From Rhizophagus irregularis (Eukaryota; Glomeromycota; Glomeromycetes; Glomerales; Glomeraceae), in NCBI RefSeq assembly GCF_026210795.1, contig NC_089444.1, positions 2,904,501 through 2,968,500 on the forward strand: a stretch of DNA of 64,000 nucleotides. Reading direction: 5' to 3'. The first letter of the stretch is position 1, and the number at the start of each line of letters is the position of its first letter. The position numbers were made by a program, and so were the translations under genes. Positions 6,172 to 50,064 of the stretch are shown here, piece by piece. Below the pieces are notes generated by a model that was not told the origin of the DNA, made no database searches, and was given only the letters and a program-made list of their open reading frames with translations.

Positions 6172-8068
6172 TCACTTACTTTCATTATCAAAGCATTGTT
6201 CAGAATTTATATCTATGTCCAATTCAAATTCTTGCGTAGTATAATCTAAATAAATGAAAACGAAAAATAATTAAATTTAAGCACAAATTATTTTTATTAC
6301 AAATACGCGAAATATTTTACCATTATTTTCATTTTCGATTAATTTAACCTTTTTAATAAATTTACCTGGAAATTTTAAATTAGTAAATATTGAATTCATT
6401 CACATTTATATATAAATTTTGGCTTTTATCATACCTTCATTAAAACTGTTTTCGATTTGAGTGTCGTCAAACTTTCTTTTATCTTAAAAAATAAACTTAT
6501 TAATATTACTTAAAATTATATTAGTTATTAACCCTTAAATAAATAATTACTATTAAAAGATATATCGTTTTTTTGATGATAATTAGATACTTCTAAATAG
6601 TAACGGAGTATAATTATTAATTTTTTATCAAAATTAAATATTCAATATTGTTATATTTATCGATTTTTGCAGTTATAGACTGGCTTCTTAAACTTCTTGT
6701 AGACATTGTAAACATTGCAGATTGAATCATACCACTCAAAGGTCTACTTCTATAAATAGCACCTGAATTATTTTTTGTTACAGGCCCAATATCTGACGAC
6801 TGTATAATTTTAGTTACTGTTCCCCATTCACGCTTATGCATTTTATTAATTCTATCATAAATATCAGTAGCTACTGGTCTTTTATTAGGATCAGAATGCC
6901 AGCATTCTTTCATTAATTCAATATACCCTTTGGGCGCATTTGTAACAATTGGTGGTCTTAAACCATTACATATTTCTATTATAAGTTCCGCATCATGACT
7001 TCTATTCCAAAAAGGTCTTCTACTTGTCATAAATTCCCACATAATCATACCTAAACTATATATGTCTGATTCTTTGGTATACTTTTTTCCTTTAAAAGTC
7101 TCTGGATCCATATAAGGAATGATACCATAATTCTCTTTGTTATTATCATCATCTGTAATTTCAGTTGCAGATTTACTTAATCCAAAATCACCTAAATATA
7201 CAAAATACCCATCATGAAAAAAGATATTTCCACTATGAAAATCTCTGTGTAAAATATTTACACTATGTATATTGACAAGACCAATTACTATTTGTGCTAT
7301 ATTACTCAACTTTGTCCTCCAATCAATACTATAAAAATCATTAGTTATATAGTTTGTCAAATCACCTAATTCATAATGTGGCATAATAATCATGATATCT
7401 TTGGTAACGGGATCTTGGGTAATCCCAAAATATTTACTAACATTATTTTGATATTTATATATTGTATATTTTTCTCTTTTACGCCCCCCTTTTCCAATTT
7501 AAAGAAAATTCATAAAATATCTTGAGCTAAAATAAAAAGTTTATTAATTACTTAACTCAAATTTAAGTTAATAAATAATTATAATCACCTCATTCAACTC
7601 CTTAGATGTAATGCCTTTAGAATTATTAAGCTTTTTAAGAACGACTTTATGATCTTTATATTTATTTTTTACATTATTCCAACTATGCATTTCTGGACCA
7701 TCAATCCAAGTAGCCTTATAAATTTTACTAAAACCTCCTTCAGCAATGAATTCTACATTTTTGAATTGATCATAAGGTACAAACGCCATTTTTCCAGCTA
7801 ATTTATTGCCACTAATTAATGTATGCTTAATAAAATCATCAATAACTTTGTTCTCACTTGGTATATATACTGATTTCGCTTTATAACAAACCTGACAAAT
7901 CTGATGATTTTCATCTAAACGTTTCCTTTTTTGGTTACATTCGCTGCATAATATTGTCATTTTACGTTTACGATTTCGTTTAATTGTAGTTTGTTGTGGC
8001 AGGCCTAAAAATGTGTTGTCTGATAATAAAAAATCAATTTTTAGTTTATGATTTGTTAATTGATCCAT
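6172..8068 (-). CDS. TKL-type protein kinase with N-terminal zinc ribbon (five exons; one frame break)
   Basis: Exon 1 (8068-7589) starts at an ATG. It encodes a basic stretch, a zinc ribbon (CSEC...CQVC), a linker (FVPYDQF), a glycine loop (AEGGFSKIYKA) and the ATP-lysine strand (VVLKKL), and ends at the alpha-C Glu. Exon 2 (7526 to about 6620) carries the hinge, the catalytic loop HRDFHSGN, DFG (GDFGLS), MDPE and the DIYSLGMIMWEF helix. Short exons 6482-6435, 6365-6321 and 6245-6172 give a tail (KRKFDDTQIENSF, then GKFIKKVKLIENENN, then DYTTQEFELDIDIN) whose phases agree, ending at TGA. All catalytic residues are present, so an active Ser/Thr or dual-specificity kinase is likely. Exon 2 has a frame break at a six-C run (7484-7489), and its 3' donor is unclear. 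The gene could be real with a base-call error, or a recent pseudogene. Confidence 0.72.
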
Positions 8069-16519: not shown

Positions 16520-19500
16520 TCAATCAACAATGATTGCACAACTTATACATTCAGAATTATCATACTTAGGAAGATCCTTTGTAAAAGGATCAAGTAATCG
16601 AGATGTATAAATAGCTTCTGGATGTTGTTTGTTTTTCTTGAGAGAAGGGAGTGATTTTCTGTAAATTTCTGCCTCTTTAAATTGCTTTCTAATCTCAGTT
16701 GCATTTGAATCACCTTTTTTATATGAGTTATAAAAATTATAAAATGACTTAATCCCAACATTTATTTCAGTAACACTTGGTCTATTATTTGGATTTGAAT
16801 CCCAACATCTTTTCATCAAGTCAATATAACATTTTGGTATTTCCAGCTCATTTATTTCAGGTCTTATTCCATCACATATCCCTAATGTTAGATGATGGTC
16901 ATGTGCACAATTGTCAAAAGGTTGTTTTCCAGTTGCTGTGAAATACATAATCATACCAAAGCTATATATATCTGCTGCTTGAGTATATGGCATTCCTCTT
17001 AATACTTCAGGTGCCATATAAGGAATAACTCCATAAGTTTTTTCCTCACTTGTATTATTCACATCTTCACATAATCCCATATCTGATATAAATAACGATT
17101 TCCTATTAAGATTATTTAAGTTTTTTGTTAAAAACAATATATTTCCTGTATGAAAATCATGATGAACCTTCTGATTTTTATGAATTCCTTTAAGACCTTC
17201 AATGATACTAAGAAGTGTCTGTATTTTATTTCTCCAATCAAAATCTTTATAATTTATATCTATCCAATTATTATAACTTCCACCATCCGCATATTCAATA
17301 ACTATAATATAATCATTTGTATTTGGATTTTGTGATACTCCATATACATTAAGAATATCATCCATTTTGTTAATTGAATATTCTCTAACCTAGTTTAATA
17401 AATAATAAATTTATTTTAATTGGAATGCTTTTTTTAACTAATAATTTTTAAGAAATTTCATACCTCACTTAAAAATTTATCAATCATATTTTGTGAATTA
17501 TTTAAACACTTTAAAGCAACTTTTTTATTTGAAACTCTAGTACACATTTCTTCATCAACATCATATTTTATTGGACCATCTTTCCATATTGCTGAATAAA
17601 CTGTAGCAAATCCACCTTTACCTATTTCTTTAATGTAATTAAATTGATCATATGGTATCCATTCAAATATTATATTAAAAGGAGAATTGATTTTTAATTG
17701 CATTTCTTGAATTAAATCATCAATTTTTTCATTTCCATTATTAATGGAAGTTGCAGTTATTAGACATTGTCTACACCATGAATGATCAGCATGACCATAT
17801 TTTTCGCCACAATTTTTGCAATATGTTTTACCATATTCTGTACAATATTCATTTTCAAGAACCAAAATGTAATTCTTTTTTTTTGGATTTTGAGATATCC
17901 CATACATTTTGAAACTATTAGCATGTTCTTTAACCTGTTAAATTATAAAGATACATCACTAAAAAATTCAAAGAAAATTTAATTTAAATTAAAAATATTT
18001 TATACCTTCATACCTTATTTAAAAATTTTTGTGAATCATTGAAACACACTAAAGCAACCTCAGTTTCCTCATATTTCCATATTGCTGAATGTACTGTAAC
18101 AAAATGTCCTTTGTCTATATTTCTAATTTTGTTAAACTGATTGTATGATATCCATTTAAATCTTGTATCACTTGGCTTGTTAATTTTTAATTGAATTAAA
18201 CTATCAATTTTAACATCTCCACTTTTCCAGCACATAAAATTACATAGTTTACACCATTTATACTGGATGTCTGAATATATCTCATCACACATGCTACAAT
18301 ATTTTTCATTATCAAGAGCCAAAATATAGTCCTTGGTATCTGGATTTTGGGATATTCCATACAATACAAGAAACTTGTTATTTTTTGTTGAATATTTTTT
18401 AGCCTAAAAACATAAGTTAATATAGGTTAAAAATTACTAATAATAAATGTAATAATATTTATAGAAATTTATACCTCATTTATTAGAGAATCAACAGGAT
18501 TTTGTAAGTTATGCAAACATTTTAAAGTAACATCTATATTTGAATATCTTTCATAATATGAAGTCCACTTATTTTTTTTGTATAATGGGCCATTCCTCCA
18601 TATTGCTGAATATGTGGTTATAGAACTATTTTTACTTATTTCTTTAATTCTGTTAAACTGATTGTATGGTATCCATTCAAATGTTACATCATCATAGGGA
18701 TTAATATTTAATTGCCTTTCTATAATGAAATTATCAATTTTTTCATTTCCACTTATCCAGTTTATAAGGTTCACAGTATTATCATTTTGAACTAAAATAT
18801 AATAACCCGTGTCTGGATTTTGAGTTATTTCATACAATACAAGAAATTTGTCATTTTTTGTTGAATGTTTTTTAGCCTAAAATCACAAACAGAAAATTAG
18901 CATTATATTAAGGAATGTAATAATAAACGTAATAATATTTATAAAATTTTATACCTCATTTATTAGAGAATCAACAGGATTTTGCAAGTTATGCAAACAT
19001 TTTAAAACTACTTCTTTATTTGAATCTCTTGAATAATATGATTTCCAGAAATGGTATAATGGGCCATTCCACCATATTGCTGAATATACAGTTATAGAAC
19101 TATTTTTGCATATTTCTTTAATTTCATTAAACTGATTGTATGGTATCCATTCAAATATTACATCATTGTTGTGATTAGCTTTTAATTGCCTTTCTTGAAT
19201 GAAATCATCAATTTTTTCATTTCCGCTAGTTCGGATAAGATGATTTTGAACTAAAATATAATCACTTGTATCTGGATTTTGAGATATTCCATACAATCTA
19301 AGAAACTTGTCTTTTTTTGTTGAATATTTTTTAGCTTAAAACCATAAATTGATATTAGTTAAAAAATTAATAATAAATTTAATAATATATATATAAAATT
19401 TATACCTCATTTATTAAAAAATCAACAGGATTTTGCAAGTTATGCAAACATTTTAAAGCTACCTCTTCATTTGAAATTCTTGTATATTTACCATTACATT

Positions 19501-20159
19501 TATGCAATATGCCATTCCTCCATATTGCTGAATATATAGTTATAGAACCACTTTTTCCTGTTTCTTTAATTTTATTAAACTGATTGTATGGTATCCACTC
19601 AAATATTGTGCCATCACAAAGATTAATATTTCTTTCTTGAATGAAATCATCAATTTTTTCATTTCCACTAGTTCGGATAAGGTAATTTTGAACTAAAATA
19701 TAATCACTTGTATCTGGATTTTGAGATATTCCATACAATACAAAAAACTCATTAGTTTTTGTTGAATATTTTTTAGCCTAAAACCATAAATTAATATTAA
19801 TTAAAAAATTAATAATAAATGTATATAATATTTGTTGAAATTTATACCTTATTTATTAGAGAATCAACAGGATTTTGCAAGTTATGCAAAATTTTTAAAG
19901 AAACTTCTTTATTTGGATCTCTTATATAATATGAAGTCCACTTATTTTTTTTGTATAATGGGCCATTCCTCCATATTGCTGAATATACAGTTATAGAACC
20001 ATTTTTGTCTGTTTCTTTAATTTCGCTAAACTGATCGTATGGTATCCATTCGAATATTACATCATTATAATTTTTAGCTTTTAATTGTCTTTTTTGAATA
20101 AAACTATCAATTTTTGTATTTCCGCTAGTCCAATTTTTTAAATCTTTAATTTGGAACAT
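16520..20159 (-). CDS. Locus A: multi-N-lobe TKL kinase, seven exons, six tandem N-lobes and one C-lobe
   Basis: Exons: 20159-19848, 19777-19406, 19335-18955, 18876-18475, 18403-18014, 17934-17464, 17389-16520. All are multiples of three, joined in phase 0 at GAG or AAG|GTAT donors and TTTTTAG|GCTAAA-type acceptors. Spliced, it would give about 1065 residues. Each internal exon encodes KKYSTKN...YGISQNPDTxDYIL (end of one N-lobe), then SGNEKIDDFIQE...FEWIPYNQF...YSAIW...VALKCLHNLQN (start of the next). The glycine loop is degenerate in modules 1-4 (KNGSITVYSA type), partial in 5 (KGHFVTVHSA) and canonical in 6 (GKGGFATVYSA). Exons 5 and 6 also carry CxxC zinc-ribbon motifs. The last exon is the C-lobe, with HHDFHTGN in place of HRD, DMG in place of DFG, APEVLRG and DIYSFGMIMYF. 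The exon 3 acceptor is mutated. An in-frame upstream ATG at 20219 is possible, but 20159 matches locus C. The kinase role is inferred; the target is unknown. Confidence 0.75.
18955..19335 (-). pseudogene. Locus A exon 3 with disrupted splice acceptor
   Basis: All other module exons here follow TTTAG|GCTAAAA or an equivalent AG|G. On this strand the acceptor reads TTTAAGCTAAAA, so the expected AG (19337-19336) is AA. Using the next AG shifts the frame by one and soon meets a stop. Because the exon is symmetric (381 bp, phase 0-0), skipping it would keep the protein in frame. The coding body itself is intact. Confidence 0.7.
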
Positions 20160-26535: not shown

Positions 26536-29500
26536 ATGTCTTCTCAAGATATTGAATGCTCAAAACATTCTAGATATTTAAAAAATGAATTTATAAATTG
26601 GACCAGCGGAAATGAAAGAATTGATGATTTCATTCAAGAAATGCAATTAAAAGTTGAAAATACAATATTCGAATGGATACCATACAGTCAATTTAATGAA
26701 ATTAAAGAAACTGGTAAAAATAATTTTATGACAATATATTCAGCAATATGGAAAAATGATCCATTACATTACAATAATTGGGGAGATGAATATATGAGTA
26801 ATTCAAATAAGGTAGTTGCTTTAAAAATTTTACATAACTTACAAAATCCTGTCGAATTTGTAATAAATGAGGTACAAAATACAAATTTCAGCAACTATTA
26901 TTAATACTTCTTTTTTAGTATAGTATATGTACTTATCTCTTGTTTATGTTTAGGTTAAAAAATATTCAACAAAAAATGAATCATTTCTTATATTGTATGG
27001 AATATCTCAAAATCCGTATACAAAAGATTATATTTTAGTCCAAAACAACTCTATAAACCTCACAAATTGGATAAGCGGAAATGAAAAAATTGATCATTTT
27101 ATTCAAGAAATGCAATTAGAAATTGAAGATCATCATGATATAATATTTGAATGGATACCATACAGTCAGTTTAATGAAATTAAAGAAACAGGCAAAAATA
27201 ATTTTATGACAGTATATTCAGCAATATGGAAAAATGGTCCATTACATTACAATAATTGGGAAGATGATTATACAAGAGATTCAAATAAAGAAGTTGGTTT
27301 AAAAATTTTGCATAATTTACAAAATCCTATCGAATTTGTAATAAATGAGGTACAAATTTTTACAATAATTACTAATACTTTTTTTTAGCATAGTATACTT
27401 ATCTCTTCAGTTGTTTATGTTTAGGTCAAAAGATATTCAACAAAAAATGAATCATTTCTTATGTTATATGGGATATCTCAAAGTCCAGATACAGATGATT
27501 ATATTTTAGTCCAAAATAATTCTATAAACCTCACAAATTGGACCAGTGGAAATGAACAAATAGATGACTTCATTCAAGAAAGGCAATTAAAAATCAATAA
27601 GCAAAATGATGTAGTATTTGAATGGATACCATATAGTCAGTTTAATGAAATTAATAAAATAGGCAAAAATAGTTTTATGACGGTGTATTCAGCAATATGG
27701 AAAGATGGTCCATTGCGTTATGTTGGAGATTATACAAGAGATTCAAATAAAGAAGTTGTCTTAAAATTATTGCATAACTCACAAAATTCTGTTGAATTTA
27801 TAATAAACGAGGTATAAAATTTTTACAAGTATTTGAATACTTTATGGCATAGTATATTTATATATTGTTTATATTATATTTAGGCTAAAAAATATTCAAC
27901 AAAAAATGAATCATTTCACATATTATACGGAATATCTCAATGTACAGATACGAAAGATTGTATTTTAGTTCAAAATAATTCCATAACCCTTACAAATTGG
28001 ATAAGTGGAAATGAAAAAATTGATGTTTTCATTCAAGAAATGCAATTAGAAATTAAAGACCATCATGATGTGGCATTCGAATGGATACCATACAGTCAGT
28101 TTAATGAAATTAAAGAGACAGACAAAAATAGTTCTATAACAGTAAATTCAGCAATATGGAAAAATGGTCCATTATATTGGAATATTCGGCATGAAGAATA
28201 TATAAGAGATCCAAATAAAGAAGTTGCTTTAAAATGTTTGCATAACTCGCAAAATCCCGAATCATTAGTAAGCGAGGTATAAATTTCAACAAATTCAGAT
28301 TATTATAGCATTATTCTGAAAAATATACTTATCTTTATTATTATGTTTAGGTTAAAAAATGTTTAACAAAAACATTTGACTTAGAGATACTTAAAATATA
28401 TGGAATATCTCAAAATCCTGACACAAAAGATTATATTTTGGTTCAAAAAAATTTTATCTGGACAAGTAGAAATGAAAAAGTTGATAATTTTATTCAAGAA
28501 ATGAAGTTAAAAATAAATAATTATAATGACGTAGTAGTTGAGTGGATACCATTTAATCAGTTTAAAAATATTAAAGAAATAGGCTATGGTGGTTTTTCTA
28601 CGGTATATTCAGCAGAATGGAAAGTTGGTCCATTAGAATATGATGTAAATAACAAAATATATAAAAGGGATCCAAATAGAGTAATCGCATTAAAATGTTT
28701 GCATAATTCACAAAATATCACCAATGAATTTTTAAATGAGGTATGACATTTTTTAAAGAATAATTGAAAATAGAACTTATAAACTTAATCTAAAAAAATA
28801 ATAACTATTTACATATTTACATGTTTTTAATAGGTTAAAGAATATTCAATAGCTAAAGGAAGTAATATTCTTAATATACATGGAATATCCCAAAATCCTG
28901 ATACAAAAGATTATATTATGGTTCTTAAATATGCAAATGTTGGAAGTTTTAATAATTGGATAAATGTATATTTTGAATATTTTGATTGGAAAAATAAATT
29001 ATTTACATTATTAAATATTATTAATGGCCTTAAAGAAATTCATCAAAAACAAAAAGTTCATGGTGATTTTCATACAGGAAATATATTATTCAGTAATGAT
29101 TCTTCCGTTGTTTATATTTCAGATATGGGATTATGCAAAGAGGTTAGTAATGCAGATAAAACAAATATTTATGGAGTTATGCCTTATATAGCTCCTGAAG
29201 TATTAAGAGGAAAGCCTTATACTCAAGCAGCAGATATTTATAGCTTTGGTATGATTATGTATTTTGTAGCAACTGGAAGACAACCTTTTGCCGATTATGC
29301 ACATGATAAGTTTTTAGCATTTGATATTTGTAATGGAAATATACCTGAAATAAAAGAACCAGAAGCACCAGAATGTTATATTAAATTAATGAAAAAATGT
29401 TGGGATTCAAACTTAAACAATAGACCAAATGTTACTGAAGTGGAGGAATTCATCTCACTATTACTTACATCTATTTATAATGCAGAAAATGATGCAGACA

Positions 29501-29670
29501 ATGATGAAATTAAAATACAATTTGAAGAAGCAGAAGTATTTAGAAAAGCAATTCTTTTGTCTATTGAAGAAACTACTCATCCACATCATCCACAGGCTAT
29601 TTATATATCTCGATTACTTAATCCTTTAACAAAAGATCTAAATTCCGAATGTCTGGATTGTGCAATATAA
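26536..29670 (+). CDS. Locus B: multi-N-lobe TKL kinase, six exons, five tandem N-lobes and one C-lobe
   Basis: Exons: 26536-26871, 26954-27349, 27425-27811, 27884-28276, 28351-28740, 28834-29670. All are multiples of three and phase 0, giving about 912 residues. Exon 1 starts MSSQDIECSKH. Modules 1-4 have degenerate glycine loops (KNNFMTVYSA or KNSSITVNSA) but keep the lysine (VALK, VGLK or VVLK) and the alpha-C Glu (NE or SE). Module 5 is canonical (GYGGFSTVYSA, VIALKCL). The final exon is a complete C-lobe: hinge (VLKYANVGS), catalytic loop HGDFHTGN (Arg of HRD replaced by Gly), DMG, APEVLRG, DIYSFGMIMYF and CWDSNLNNRP. Introns are about 75-110 bp. The gene is divergent from locus A. All splice sites look intact, so of the three loci this is among the best candidates for a working gene. 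Substrate unknown. Confidence 0.8.
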
Positions 29671-43247: not shown

Positions 43248-46200
43248 TCAATCAGCAATGATTGCACAACTTATACATTCAGAATTATCATACTTAGGAA
43301 GATCCTTTGTAAAAGGATCAAGTAATCGAGATGTATAAATAGCTTCTGGATGTTGTTTGTTTTTCTTGAGGGAAGGGAGTGATTTTCTGTAAATTTCTGC
43401 TTCTTTAAATTGCTTTCTAATCTCAGTTGCATTTGAATCACCTTTTTTATATGAGTTATAAAAATTATAAAATGACTTAATCCCAACATTTATTTCAGTA
43501 ACACTTGGTCTATTATTTGGATTTGAATCCCAACATCTTTTCATCAAGTCAATATAACATTTTGGTATTTCCAGCTCATTTATTTCAGGTCTTATTCCAT
43601 CACATATCGCTAATGTTAGATGATGGTCATGTGCACAATTGTCAAAAGGTTGTTTTCCAGTTGCTGTGAAATACATAATCATACCAAAGCTATATATATC
43701 TGCTGCTTTAGTATATGGCATTCCTCTTAATACTTCAGGTGCCATATAAGGAATAACTCCATAAGTTTTTACCTCACTTGTATTATTCACATTTTCACAT
43801 AATCCCATATCTGATATAAATAACGATTTCCTATTAAGATTATTTAAGTTTTTTGTTAAAAACAATATATTTCCTGTATGAAAATCATGATGAACCTTCT
43901 GATTTTTATGAATTCCTTTGAGACCTTCAATGATACTAAGAAGTGTCTGTATTTTATTTCCCCAATCAAAATCTTTATAATTTATATCTATCCAATTATT
44001 ATAACTTCCACCATCTGCATATTCAATAACTATAATATAATCATTTGTATTTGGATTTTGTGATACTCCATATACATTAAGAATATCATCCATTTTGTTA
44101 ATTGAATATTCTCTAACCTATTTTAATAAATAAAAATTATTGTTAAAAAAGCATTCCAATTAAAATAAATTTATTAAGAAATTTCATACCTCACTTAAAA
44201 ATTTATCAATCATATTTTGTGAATTATTTAAACACTTTAAAGCAACTTTTTTATTTGAAACTCTAGTACACATTTCTTCATCAACATCATATTTTATTGG
44301 ACCATCTTTCCATATTGCTGAATAAACTGTAGCAAATCCACCTTTACCTATTGCTTTAATGTAATTAAATTGATCATATGGTATCCATTCAAATATTATA
44401 TTAAAAGGAGAATTGATTTTTAATTGCATTTCTTGAATTAAATCATCAATTTTTTCATTTCTACTATTAATGGAAGTTGCAGTTATTAGACATTGTCTAC
44501 ACCATGTATGATCAACATGACCATATTTTTCACCACAATTTTTGCAATATGTTTTACCATATTCTGTACAATATTCATTTTCAAGAACCAAAATGTAATC
44601 CTTTTTTTTTAGATTTTGAGATATCCCATACATTTTGAAACTATTATCATATTCTTTAACCTGTTAAATTATAAAGATACATCACTAAAAAATTCAAAGA
44701 AAATTTAATTTAAATTAAAAATATTTTATACCTTCATACCTTATTTAAAAATTTTTGTGAATCATTGAAACATACTAAAGCAACCTCTTCATGGTTCCAT
44801 ATTGCTGAATATACTGTAAAAAAATGTCCTTTTCCTATATTCCTAATTTTATTGAACTGATTATATGGTATCCATTTAAATCTTGTATCACTCGGTTTAT
44901 TAATTTTTAATTGAATTAAACTATCAATTTTATTATCTCCACTTTTCCAGTACAAAAAATTACATAGTTTACACCATTTATACTGGATATCTGTATATAT
45001 TTCATCACACATGCTACAATAATTTTCATTATTAAGAACCAAAATATAGTCCTTGGTATCTGGATTTTGAGATATCCCATACAATACAAGTAAATTGTCA
45101 TTATTTGTTGTTGAATAATTTTTAGCCTAAACCATAAACAGGAATTAACATTATATTAAAAATGCAATAGTAATGCAATATTATTTATAGAAATTTATAC
45201 CTCATTTGTTAGATAATCAACAGGGTTTTGCAATTTATGCAAGCATTTTAAAGTAATTTTTTTATTTGAATCTCTTGTATAATATGAACTCCACTTATTT
45301 ATTTTGTATAATGGACCATTACTCCATATTGCTGAATATGCAGTTATAGAACCATTTCTGCCTACTTCTTTAATTTCATTAAACTGATTGTATGGTATCC
45401 ATTCAAATACTACATCATCATAAGAATTAATATTTAATTGTCTTTCTTGAATGAAATCATCAATTTTTTCATTTCCACTTATCCAATTTTTAAGGTTTAC
45501 AAAATTATTTTGAACTAAAATATAATCACTTGTATCTGGATTTTGAGATATTCCATACAATACAAGAAATTTGTTATTTTTTGTTGAATATTTTTTAGCC
45601 TAAAATCATAAACAAGAATTGACATTATATTAAAATGTAATAATAAATGTAATAATATTTATAAAAATTTATACCTCATTTATTAGAGAATCAACAAGAT
45701 TTTGCAAGTTATGCAAGTATTTTAAAACTACTTTTTTACTTGATTCTCTTGTATAAGATGAACCCATCATATGCAATGGGCCAGTCTTCCATATTGCTGA
45801 ATATACAGTTATAGAACTATTTCTGCCTACTTCTTTAATTTTGTTAAACTGATCGTATGGTATCCATTCGAATACTACATCATTATAAGAATTAACATTC
45901 AATTGCCTTTTTTGAATGAAATCATCAATTCTTTCATTTCCACTTTTCCATATGTAATGATTATTTTCAACAAAAATATAATCACTTGTATCTGGATTTT
46001 GAGATATACCATACAATACAAGTAATTTGTTATTTTTTGTTGAATATTTTTTAGCCTAAACCATAAAAAGAAAATTAACATTATATTGTATTTAAAACCT
46101 TAATAATAAATGTAATAATGTTTATAGAAATTTATACCTCATTTATTATAGAATCAACATGATTTTGCAAGTTATGCACACATTTAAAAACTACTTTTTT

Positions 46201-48764
46201 ATTTGGATATCTTCTAAATTTTCTTGTATTTCTTGCATAATCATACTGTAATGGGCCATTCTTCCATATTGTTGAGTATGCAGTTGTAGAACCATTTTTG
46301 CCTATTTCTTTAATTTTGGTAAACTGATTGTATGGTATCCATTCAAATACTACATCGTCATAGGAATTAATATTTAATCGACTTTTTTTAATGAAATCAT
46401 CAATTTTTTTATTTCTACTGATCTGATTTGCCAAGTTTATACAACTATTTTGAACTAAAATATAATCACTTGTATCTGGATTTTGAGATATTCCATACAA
46501 TACAAGAAATTTATTTTTTACTGAATATTTTTTAGCCTAAAACATAAACAGAACTGAAAATTAAACATTATATTTAAAAATATAATAATAAATGTAATAA
46601 TATTTATAGAAATTTATACCTCATTTATTAGAGAATCAAAAGGATTTTGCAAGTTATGTAAACATTTCAAAACAACTTCTTTATTTGAATCTCTTCTATA
46701 ATCATGATCAAAATTGCACTTTTTGTATAATGGGCCATCCTTCCATATTGCGGTTATAGAACTATTTCTGCCTACCTCTTTAATTTTATTAAACTGATTG
46801 TATGGTATCCATTCAAATATTACATCATCATTGGAATTAATATTTTTCAATTGCCTTTCTTGAATGAAATCATCAATTTTTCCATTTCCACTTGCCCAAC
46901 TTATAAGGTTTGCAAAATTACTTTGAACTAAAATATAATCTCCTGTATCTGGATTTCGAGATATTCCATACAATACAAGTAAATTGTTATTTTTTGTTGA
47001 ATATTTTTTAGCCTAAAACCATAAACAAGAAATTAACATTATATATATTAAAAAATATAATAATAAATGTAACAGCATTTAGAAATTTATACCTCTTTTA
47101 TTAGAGAATCAACAGGATTTTGCAAGTTATGCAAATATTTTAAAGCTACTTCTTTATTTGAATCTCTTGTATATTTACCATTATATTTATTCAATGGGCC
47201 ATTCCTCCATATTGCTGAATATGCAGTTATAAAATCATTTTTGCCTGCTTCTTTAATTTCATTAAACTGATCGTATGGAATCCATTCAAAAATTACACCC
47301 ATATAGGAATAAGCATTTAATTGCCTTTCTTGAAAGAAATCATCAATTTTTTCATTTCCACTTGTCCAATTTATAAGGTTTGCAAAATTACTTTGAACTA
47401 AAATATAATCTCCTGTATCTGGATTTCGAGATATTCCATACAATGCAAGTATACTGTTATTTTTTGTCAAATATTTTTTAGCCTAAAACCATAAACAAGA
47501 AATTATTAATATTATATATATATTAAAAAATGTGATTATAATAAATATAATAATTTTTATAGATGCTTATACCTCATTTATTAGAGAATCAATAGGATTT
47601 TGTAAGTTATGCAAACATTTTAAAGCTACTTCTTTATTTGAATCTCTTGTATATTTACCATTATATTTATACAATGGGCCATTTTTCCATATTGCTGAAT
47701 ATGCAGTCATAGAACCATTTTTGCCTATTTCCTTAATTTCGTTAAACTGATTGTATGGTATCCATTCTAATTTCCTCTCTTGAATGAAATCATCAATTTT
47801 TTCATTTCCGCTAGTTCGGATAAGATAATTTTGAACTAAAATATAATCACTTGTATCTGGATTTTGAGATATTCCATACAATACAAGAAATTCATTTTTT
47901 GTTGAATATTTCTTAACCTAAACCATAAACAGAAATTAACATTATATTTAAAATGTAATAATGTTTATAGAAATTTATACCTCATTTATTAGAGAATCAA
48001 CAGGATCTTGCAAGTTATGTAAACATTTCAAAACAACTTCTTTATTTAAATCTCTTCTATAATAATGATACCGATACTTTTTGTATAATGGGCCATCCTT
48101 CCACATTGCTGTATATACAGTTATAGAACCATTTCTTCTTACTTCTTTAATTTTATTAAACTGATTGTATGGTATCCATTCAAATATTACATGATCATTG
48201 AAATTGATATTTATTGATTGCCTTCCTTGAATGAAATCATCAATTTTTTCATTTCCACTTGCCCAACTTATAAGTTTTGCAAAATTACTTTGAACTAAAA
48301 TATAATTTCCTGTATCTGGATTTCGAGATATTCCATGCAATACAAGTATATTATTATTTTTTGTTAAATATTTTTTAGCCTAAAATCATAAACAATAAAT
48401 TAACATCATATATATTAAAAAATGTGATAATAAATATAATAATTTTTATAGATATATATACCTCATTTATTAGAGAATCAACAGGATTTCGCCAGCTGTG
48501 CAAACATTTTAAAGCAACTTCTTTATTTGAATCTTTTGTATTAAACTTCTTAGTGTTTAATGGGCCATTCTTCCATATTGCTGAATATACAGTTATGGGA
48601 TAATTTTTGCCTGTTTCTTTAATTTCGTTAAACTGATCGTATGGTATCCATTCAAATACTGCACCCTTATATTCATTAATTTTTAACTGTCTTTCTTGAA
48701 TAAAACTATCAATTTTTACATTTCCGCTAGTCCAACGTTTCAAATCTTTATTTTGGAAGGACAT
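43248..48764 (-). CDS. Locus C: multi-N-lobe TKL kinase, 11 exons, ten tandem N-lobes and one C-lobe
   Basis: Exons: 48764-48462, 48379-47981, 47917-47573, 47482-47093, 47012-46620, 46536-46138, 46055-45675, 45599-45201, 45126-44740, 44660-44190, 44117-43248. Every exon is a multiple of three with phase-0 joins, giving about 1578 residues. It starts MSFQNKDLKRWTSGN. Modules 1-8 have degenerate glycine loops (for example KNGSMTAYSA, GRNSSITVYSA; module 5 also lacks the YSA of the strand) but keep the lysine (VALK, VVLK, VVFK or ITLK). Module 9 has a zinc ribbon (CSMC...CKLC), a GKGH loop and Val in place of the lysine. Module 10 has CxxC motifs and a canonical GKGGFATVYSA loop. The last exon is the C-lobe with HHDFHTGN, DMG and APEVLRG. 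The final C-lobe ORF differs from locus A at only six of 281 residues. No broken splice site was found. Catalytic output is plausible but unproven. Confidence 0.8.
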
Positions 48765-50064
48765 TTTTCAAAATTCAAAAAATTTTTTGAACGAAAAATT
48801 TATATATGACTATAAGGATCGTCATACGCGAAAATCATGCATAACAATGCAACAAATTAAATTTTTAATATGAGAAATTATTTTGTCACACATGGGCAAA
48901 AGGTAACACAAATAATAAAGTGCGCAAAAATTAATAAAATGTATGCAATTTTTTTGTAGAGCAGAATATTTTCTATATATTGGGTAGTATTGTATTTAAT
49001 TATATTTTACAAACAAATGCAGAATTTATTTATTATTTAGGAATGAATTATTTTAATTCAGGCAATATTAGAATTAATATCCGAGAAAATAGTTTATCTA
49101 ATATAACTTAATCAATGTATTTGACATTATGTTATACAGTATGTTAAATTCATTTTTTTTCCCGTCAAAGAAGCTGTTTATAGTTTCTTGTATTAAAAAA
49201 TAAATTAAAACAACAAGTTCCCCTTTTCTGAAAATGTGGCACGTAAACTACACGCCGGTGTAACTAATATAATACATATTATTCTCGTACCAGCAAACGC
49301 TAATTTCTTTCTATTGAGTTCATTATTTTTAAATATTAAAATTGAAAGTAGTAACAACAAGTGGAATTTAATTAAGAAAATCCAAACAAAATTCTCGATA
49401 TTACACAATTTATCTTACAAGAGAAGCCAATTCGTAAAAAATAATTTTTAACTATTACACATCTATTTAAATTATTATTTACAAAATTATTTACATATGG
49501 GAGCACAAATAGATTACGACATAATTATTTTAATTAATTTCAGTATGTAAGCCAAATATTTGGATCTTTATTTTTTTAGTTTCACTATTTTGGTTTCACA
49601 ATTTTTGGTTTCACAATTTTAGTTACACAGTTTTGGTTTCACAATTTTGGTTTCCCACGATTTTGGTTTGATATGAACGTGACCAAAAAAATTATTCTTT
49701 TAACAAAAATTATGCGATTTCAACGAATCTTTTTTGTATTAAATCGCGTTGATGTTTGATGACTTTTGAAATGACTATTTGAAAAAAATTAGAAATTTAT
49801 AATTAGAATTTGGCGATAGAAATGTTATAAAAAGAGCGCGAAAATTCCAAATTAATTTTCCTTGCCGATTTGATCAAAAAAATTAAATTAACAATATTGG
49901 ATAAAATATGTGGGGTAAAAAATATATGGGATAATATATATATATATATAATATGATACAAAAAAAAATTAAGCGCGCTCTTAGCCCGGCCGCTGGACAG
50001 TAAATGACAAAAAGGCAATAGGATTTATAAATTTTAAATCAAATCTTTATAAAAACTTAAATCT
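48765..50064. other. Upstream region of locus C, paralogous to that of locus A
   Basis: Includes the GGTTTCACAATTTT minisatellite at 49575-49665 and the GTTATACAGTATGTTAA block near 49130. No gene supported; the ORF at 49205 has no recognisable content. Confidence 0.5.

Follow-up and report, generated by a model that had tools for sequence, protein, structure and literature searches.

Protein kinases are generally regarded as two-lobed units that cannot be divided, and where kinase and pseudokinase stand in tandem (as in JAK, GCN2, and the plant tandem kinase proteins) it is whole bilobed domains that are duplicated, usually two to four of them. In RAF/KSR, the catalytically weak partner acts via side-to-side contacts between the N-terminal lobes (N-lobes), in which a tryptophan before strand β1 takes part. 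Here we describe a gene in a 64,000-nucleotide stretch of the Rhizophagus irregularis genome (contig NC_089444.1, positions 2,904,501 to 2,968,500; hereafter the window, in which plain coordinates are given) that repeats one lobe alone: on the minus strand, from 48764 to 43248, it is predicted to encode ten kinase N-lobes, each from β1 to β5, and then one C-lobe. Like JAK, GCN2, and the plant tandem kinases, it places a non-catalytic, kinase-derived part ahead of a catalytic one in the same chain; unlike JAK and the plant proteins, it has one C-lobe and one Pfam kinase stretch, the N-lobe alone being repeated, and two complete domains are not found in it. The partners in RAF/KSR are separate complete domains, whereas those of the gene described here would be N-lobes without C-lobes, in cis.

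The kinase repertoire of R. irregularis is well known to be expanded (PMC10234402, PMC8647823, PMC6123716), to 2,533 genes in one of these sources (PMC10234402), and the family described here belongs, as far as can be told, to this expansion. The kinase-expansion passages of the three papers make no mention of N-lobe arrays. Nor did we find any account of them in the open-access literature (subscription papers being mostly outside the search), in agreement with the initial annotation, which had considered them apparently undescribed; they may have gone unnoticed because Pfam reports a single kinase domain in the 1578 residues of the protein.

Architecture of the gene

The gene consists of 11 phase-0 exons with GT..AG introns, which are predicted to splice in frame to exactly 1578 residues; the architecture of ten N-lobes and one C-lobe, the coordinates, and the length of about 1578 residues given by the initial annotation are thus borne out. 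Exons 1-10 each encode a linker followed by β1, β2, β3, and helix αC, the last codon being that of the αC glutamate (lysine in exon 9), and β4-β5 of the preceding N-lobe form the start of exons 2-11. The same annotation had each of the ten exons combine the front part of one N-lobe with the αC-to-hinge part of the previous one; this holds for exons 2-10, except that the internal modules end after β5, ahead of the hinge, and it does not hold for exon 1, which has no preceding β4-β5. Only the tenth N-lobe continues into a hinge and C-lobe.

All exons lie on the minus strand. Exon 1 (48462-48764) carries the leader MSFQNKDLKRW, a linker, and β1-αC of N-lobe 1, whose Gly-loop, TGKNYPIT, is non-canonical; exon 2 (47981-48379) carries β4-β5 of N-lobe 1, a linker, and β1-αC of N-lobe 2. 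Exons 3 (47573-47917), 4 (47093-47482), 5 (46620-47012), 6 (46138-46536), 7 (45675-46055), and 8 (45201-45599) follow suit, each opening with β4-β5 of the N-lobe that bears the preceding number and closing with β1-αC of the N-lobe that bears its own. Exon 9 (44740-45126) contains β4-β5 of N-lobe 8, a CxxC..WCxxC knuckle, and β1-αC of N-lobe 9, which is of a penultimate type: its loop, GKGHFF, keeps the glycines, and its β3 lysine and αC glutamate are replaced by valine and lysine, respectively. Exon 10 (44190-44660) contains β4-β5 of N-lobe 9, a Cys knuckle, and β1-αC of N-lobe 10, where the Gly-loop is canonical (IGKGGFATVYSAIW, IGKGGFAT) and both the β3 lysine and the αC glutamate are present. 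Exon 11 (43248-44117) provides β4-β5 of N-lobe 10, the hinge, the single C-lobe with the motifs HHDFHTGN, DMG, and APE, and the stop codon (TGA); at the positions of HRD and DFG the catalytic and the metal-binding aspartate are thus present, with atypical neighboring residues. In this subfamily such Cys knuckles belong to the linker ahead of the last N-lobe or of each of the last two (44190-45126, and terminal or penultimate exons of related arrays on contig C16); the internal modules of the gene have none.

On the whole protein, Pfam PF07714 matches at residues 1232-1499 (E 3e-47), the sole kinase stretch in the 1578 residues, and the best PDB matches of the terminal kinase unit are MAP3K9, TAK1, and ROCO4. 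Judged by these matches, exons 10 and 11 are one kinase of the tyrosine kinase-like (TKL) type, which we take to be the group name for kinases resembling MLK1, TAK1, ZAK, RIPK1, and ROCO4, and form the predicted catalytic unit. In these two exons the gene resembles such kinases in having a complete kinase domain; it differs from them in the nine extra N-lobes ahead of it, which are uncovered by any Pfam kinase match. A further Pfam model, BCS1_N, scores 52 bits on the 1578-residue protein (E 1e-13), above its cut-off of 28.1 bits for whole proteins; no single stretch passes alone, however, and single N-lobes reach E 0.19 at best, so that this score is taken as an effect of the repeats.

The initial annotation treated the gene as a lone oddity, but it is one of a large family. 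In the one genome searched (146,748,485 bases in 32 contigs), 30 genes, three of them in the window, combine at least three N-lobe exons with one C-lobe; they range from 3 to 36 N-lobes, the largest array lying on contig C20. The loci were picked by similarity to a module or C-lobe, or from motif clusters, and not at random; the N-lobe counts are minima, because several loci are cut at the 5′ end, and one locus (L030), which repeats the window gene at 26587-29667, is left out of all counts given. An AG and a GT in phase, no more than 12 nucleotides away from the expected ends, flank 226 of the 232 full-length modules (the other six are left out of the alignment, residue, and selection counts); the first codon is exactly the aligned one in 222 of the 226, and the exon ends at the aligned position of the αC glutamate in 225.

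The arrays also begin alike. Leaders of the form MxSQN.. (MSSQNK, MFSQNI, MSFQNK) are common to first exons across arrays, and among the 20 arrays whose start lies in the retrieved DNA, with start peptides picked by hand, 15 have a TATAWA box 25-90 nucleotides 5′ of the ATG (mean 3.0 and maximum 8 of 20 in 500 first-order Markov controls). In the gene itself this box (TATATAAA; 48799-48806, minus strand) lies about 40 nucleotides 5′ of the start codon; it is absent from the divergent arrays L032-L034, from L003, and from the window gene at 26587-29667. By eye, an element resembling TATGCATTATTATGCATGAATTG recurs besides the TATA box 5′ of exon 1 in several arrays of the C16 clade (for example at 48807-48874). 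As far as sequence can tell, the whole array, first exon included, is a real gene. That it is an artefact of assembly or gene prediction, the real gene comprising its last two exons only, is scarcely credible in view of 30 genes with diverged modules, of a conserved promoter and leader exon at the start of the array, and of a terminal exon that opens with conserved β4-β5 of the N-lobe before it (Gly16 in 22/22 terminal modules). Neither is it an echo of assembly, since the modules of the gene differ (the highest nucleotide identity between its internal modules is 0.92) and the assembly that this genome matches, that of isolate DAOM197198, is Nanopore-based with a uniform coverage of 77-85x (PMC10234402).

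ATP-binding residues along the array

The aligned modules were classed by their place as 22 terminal, 179 internal, and 16 penultimate ones; the nine of L004, which has no C-lobe, are counted apart, and terminal modules that match the model only partly (e.g. L003, L005) are not among the 22. The second loop glycine, the β3 lysine, and the αC glutamate are complete in 21 of the 22 terminal modules and in none of the 204 others, which makes the 'multivalent ATP sensing' proposed in the initial annotation less likely. The GxG pair is found in 16/22 terminal, 0/179 internal, and 2/16 penultimate modules. Internal modules nearly always keep the β3 lysine (177/179) and mostly the αC glutamate (165/179), and have N at the second glycine (154/179); those of L004 have no GxG and all nine keep the lysine. 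Penultimate modules have the lysine in 13 and the glutamate in 10 of 16 cases; three of them, including exon 9 of the gene, have the second glycine, and in all three both lysine and glutamate are lost. On these counts, non-terminal N-lobes have lost the complete ATP-binding set by one of two complementary routes. The tryptophan before β1 is nearly invariant (178/179 internal modules). In the divergent arrays L032, L033, and L034, as read by eye, a loop of the type AKGGFGKVY, GKGGFATVY, or GKGGFAIVY is confined to the last module.

The penultimate type (EVALVCFNDSQKFLNK; 44740-45126 and the penultimate exons of about ten related arrays) also has a shortened β2-β3. It was scored in two window genes only; by eye, in the related C16 arrays, it mostly has a GKG loop and neither β3 lysine nor αC glutamate.

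We propose that the C-lobe and the N-lobe adjoining it would form a single catalytic unit of the TKL type, and that the nine preceding N-lobes would be made in the same polypeptide, with their N-lobe core kept. The latter would not be alternative catalytic lobes, because each is without part of the ATP-binding set (the loop glycine in internal modules, the lysine and glutamate in the penultimate one). Their role would rather be that of a comb of pseudo-N-lobes, controlling or clustering the one kinase in cis, either through contacts between N-lobes like those in RAF/KSR or by docking partners; the length of the array would serve as a dial. We give such a regulatory or assembly comb about an even chance of being correct; what we infer here is that the full array is translated, that each internal unit folds as an N-lobe, that the comb is regulatory, and what sort of contact it makes. 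Among the roles suggested by the initial annotation, that of several regulatory N-lobes acting on one catalytic lobe appears to fit the positional code best.

Exons 1-10 could instead be a splicing cassette of alternative β1-αC halves, joined to exon 11 in a mutually exclusive manner. Arrays of mutually exclusive exons (PMC9013439) likewise consist of tandem homologous exons in phase, and the identical phase-0 boundaries of the gene would keep any skip in frame; yet its exons straddle two N-lobes, and the full catalytic set is found in the last module alone. The internal exons, moreover, carry β4-β5 of the preceding module, about equally constrained as β1-αC (ω, the ratio of nonsynonymous to synonymous change, is 0.71 and 0.67, respectively); as a constrained β4-β5 is useless unless the preceding exon is included, this argues against the cassette, which we regard as very unlikely.

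Spread and turnover of the arrays

With one module as query, the genome yields 150 scored matches among 4540 candidates, in tandem clusters on several contigs, many of them on C16; with exon 11 it yields 135 among 4337. A DNA pattern for WIPY[DN][QKR]F has 1428 matches and that for DIYSF[GA]M, a C-lobe motif, has 357, against 0 in the control of each; since the two are unequal in strictness and the latter also counts other kinase subfamilies, their ratio is taken as a hint only. Among 100 places listed, the WIPY motif forms 30 clusters, 18 with a single motif and 12 with two or more, including four with five or more that together hold 58 motifs. Each of the 32 distinct loci having a C-lobe has it in the form HxD..HxGN and D[MF]G; exceptions to the array plan are L020, a kinase with a single N-lobe, and L004, which lacks the kinase C-lobe, and the sequence of L027 is too short for classification. 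Outside this genome, a pattern scan of genome contigs gave 24 matches, none of them confirmed.

Two paralogs lie in the window. The gene at 16523-20150 (minus strand) has six N-lobes, and its C-lobe shares 98% identity with exon 11; as its 5′ flank, first exon, and 3′ end are also in common with the ten-lobed gene, the two differ most plainly in module number. The gene at 26587-29667 (plus strand; W2) is more distant and has five N-lobes and one C-lobe. A further, still more distant kinase at 6836-7984 (minus strand) has one N-lobe match and one partial C-lobe match. Elsewhere in the genome, L004 (G000:C9:3337001-3346000) comprises ten modules and a broken eleventh, which breaks off in the linker; it is followed by an open reading frame of 509 residues, either a fusion or a neighboring gene, whose SNYHV and GDSG motifs presumably resemble those of trypsin-like proteases. 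It has no Pfam match and, as a query, finds 21 matches at E ≤ 1e-10, its own locus included. L032 (G000:C2:391501-401000), with 12 N-lobes, opens its first exon with a strongly hydrophobic stretch, and its product may be membrane-anchored.

The nearest neighbor of a terminal module is always the terminal module of another array (22/22), and that of an internal module mostly lies in its own array (141/188). The two classes are thus kept apart, and this pattern indicates vertical descent of the catalytic N-lobe and turnover of the others inside their arrays. The array of L032 groups with its own terminal module (support 100/100), and a tree uniting all non-terminal modules is rejected (approximately unbiased test, p 0.00017; computed on 53 rows, with no more than four internal modules from any array). 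Unless conversion within L032 has wiped out the traces of a shared ancestry, poly-N-lobe arrays thus seem to have more than one origin. In 8 of 13 arrays, β1-αC of an exon tracks β4-β5 of the next exon over that of its own (e.g. 0.71 vs 0.42 in L001 and 0.67 vs 0.17 in L015), which is suggestive of a duplication unit made up of β1-αC of exon i and β4-β5 of exon i+1.

Selection and the role of the comb

Pairwise ratios of nonsynonymous to synonymous divergence (dN/dS) have medians, per divergence bin, of 0.39-0.68 in internal modules, 0.39-0.47 in C-lobes, and 0.32-0.59 in terminal modules, indicating that internal N-lobes are under selection roughly like that on terminal ones and C-lobes. Tree counting over 188 internal modules identifies purifying selection (p<0.01) at 32 sites. 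The selection set is free of stops by construction, since only open-frame modules were taken; the neutral expectation of 406 nonsense changes is to be set against an internal stop in 2 of the 150 scored module matches and against 8 of 282 exons that are pieced together from two matches. At least one of these eight exons (in L003) reflects an in-frame deletion.

The purifying sites bear on a process of near-neutral birth and death, in which unequal crossing-over would multiply the module and selection would merely purge the stops and frameshifts that cut off the kinase. Such a process would go with the nearest neighbors within arrays, with the length differences between paralogs, and with an overall ω of 0.65; it does not go with 32 constrained sites, with a β3 lysine kept nearly throughout and a Gly-loop changed in one consistent way, or with internal and terminal classes that do not mix, and it appears quite improbable.

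A sensor or decoy array is a stronger contender, although we still consider it unlikely. The internal N-lobes could be diversified binding modules (integrated decoys) for partner, effector, or non-self proteins, with the terminal kinase reporting the binding, a role that pseudokinase parts may also have in plant tandem kinase immune proteins. Array length does vary, even among close paralogs with 98% identical C-lobes (6 vs 10 N-lobes), many module matches are clustered on C16, dN/dS is high at low divergence, and the β2-β3 loop is variable (ω 0.81, positions 98-112). Excess amino-acid change at p<0.05 is found at 6 of 123 tested sites, about the number expected by chance, two of which (79 and 111, with ω above 1) survive Bonferroni correction over the 123 sites; as a test for a recognition role, these hypervariable sites are not decisive. 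Only in the bin of lowest divergence do internal modules clearly outpace C-lobes (0.68 vs 0.39), and in two of the four bins they evolve more slowly than terminal modules.

The reading preferred here, of a comb that acts on the kinase in cis, has several results weighing against it. Constraint on the internal modules must be called loose, given the ω of 0.65 from tree counting over the 188 modules, median dN/dS values of 0.62 within and 0.86 between arrays for internal and other modules at a synonymous divergence (dS) of 0.05-0.2, and values of 0.29-1.68 among module pairs within the gene. The kept Lys-Glu pair is not universal, since 10 of the 11 internal modules of L032 have lost the αC glutamate, with lysine in its place; the β3 lysine is kept there without the glutamate, as it is kept elsewhere without the Gly-loop. 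In Pfam and PDB profile searches, internal modules alone match no kinase family and no solved structure, their kinship to kinases resting on similarity to the terminal module (exons 10 and 8 are 50% identical). A single exon, taken as an N-lobe that might be circularly permuted, gives a poor AlphaFold2 model (predicted local distance difference test score of 61; 3 of the 18 rows of the input alignment were cut one to a few codons off the exon ends), and a fold search with it gave nothing at E ≤ 0.001. Likewise, hhalign found no significant match of modules to an 88-residue piece of MAP3K9, and a spliced N-lobe profile had no hit up to E 0.1. With the module profile, the PDB yields one hit, to a KSR chain whose alignment includes the W-I-P-Y motif before β1, and it is not significant (E 0.76). 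This trace of similarity and the nearly invariant tryptophan before β1 bring to mind the side-to-side contact of RAF/KSR; the analogy is a lead only, and we consider contacts of specifically this type unlikely.

We give somewhat less than an even chance to a wider proposal: a signalling protein of a new kind, with at least two origins in this one fungus, in which a single catalytic kinase follows a comb of up to 35 pseudo-N-lobes, variable in length, and the comb would be used for recognition or self-assembly. If so, half a kinase domain would serve as a repeat unit in the way that ankyrin or WD repeats do in other proteins. Pfam-based kinome counts would miss such arrays, at least in the case of the gene described here. 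In multiplying one lobe, with its core under selection and the ATP-binding set broken in almost all copies other than that beside the C-lobe, and in doing so in separate subfamilies, the fungus would have made the N-lobe a repeat module in its own right. Its arrays, running to 36 N-lobes, would also be a natural series in which to test the control of a kinase by N-lobe contacts, and this in a plant symbiont of importance.

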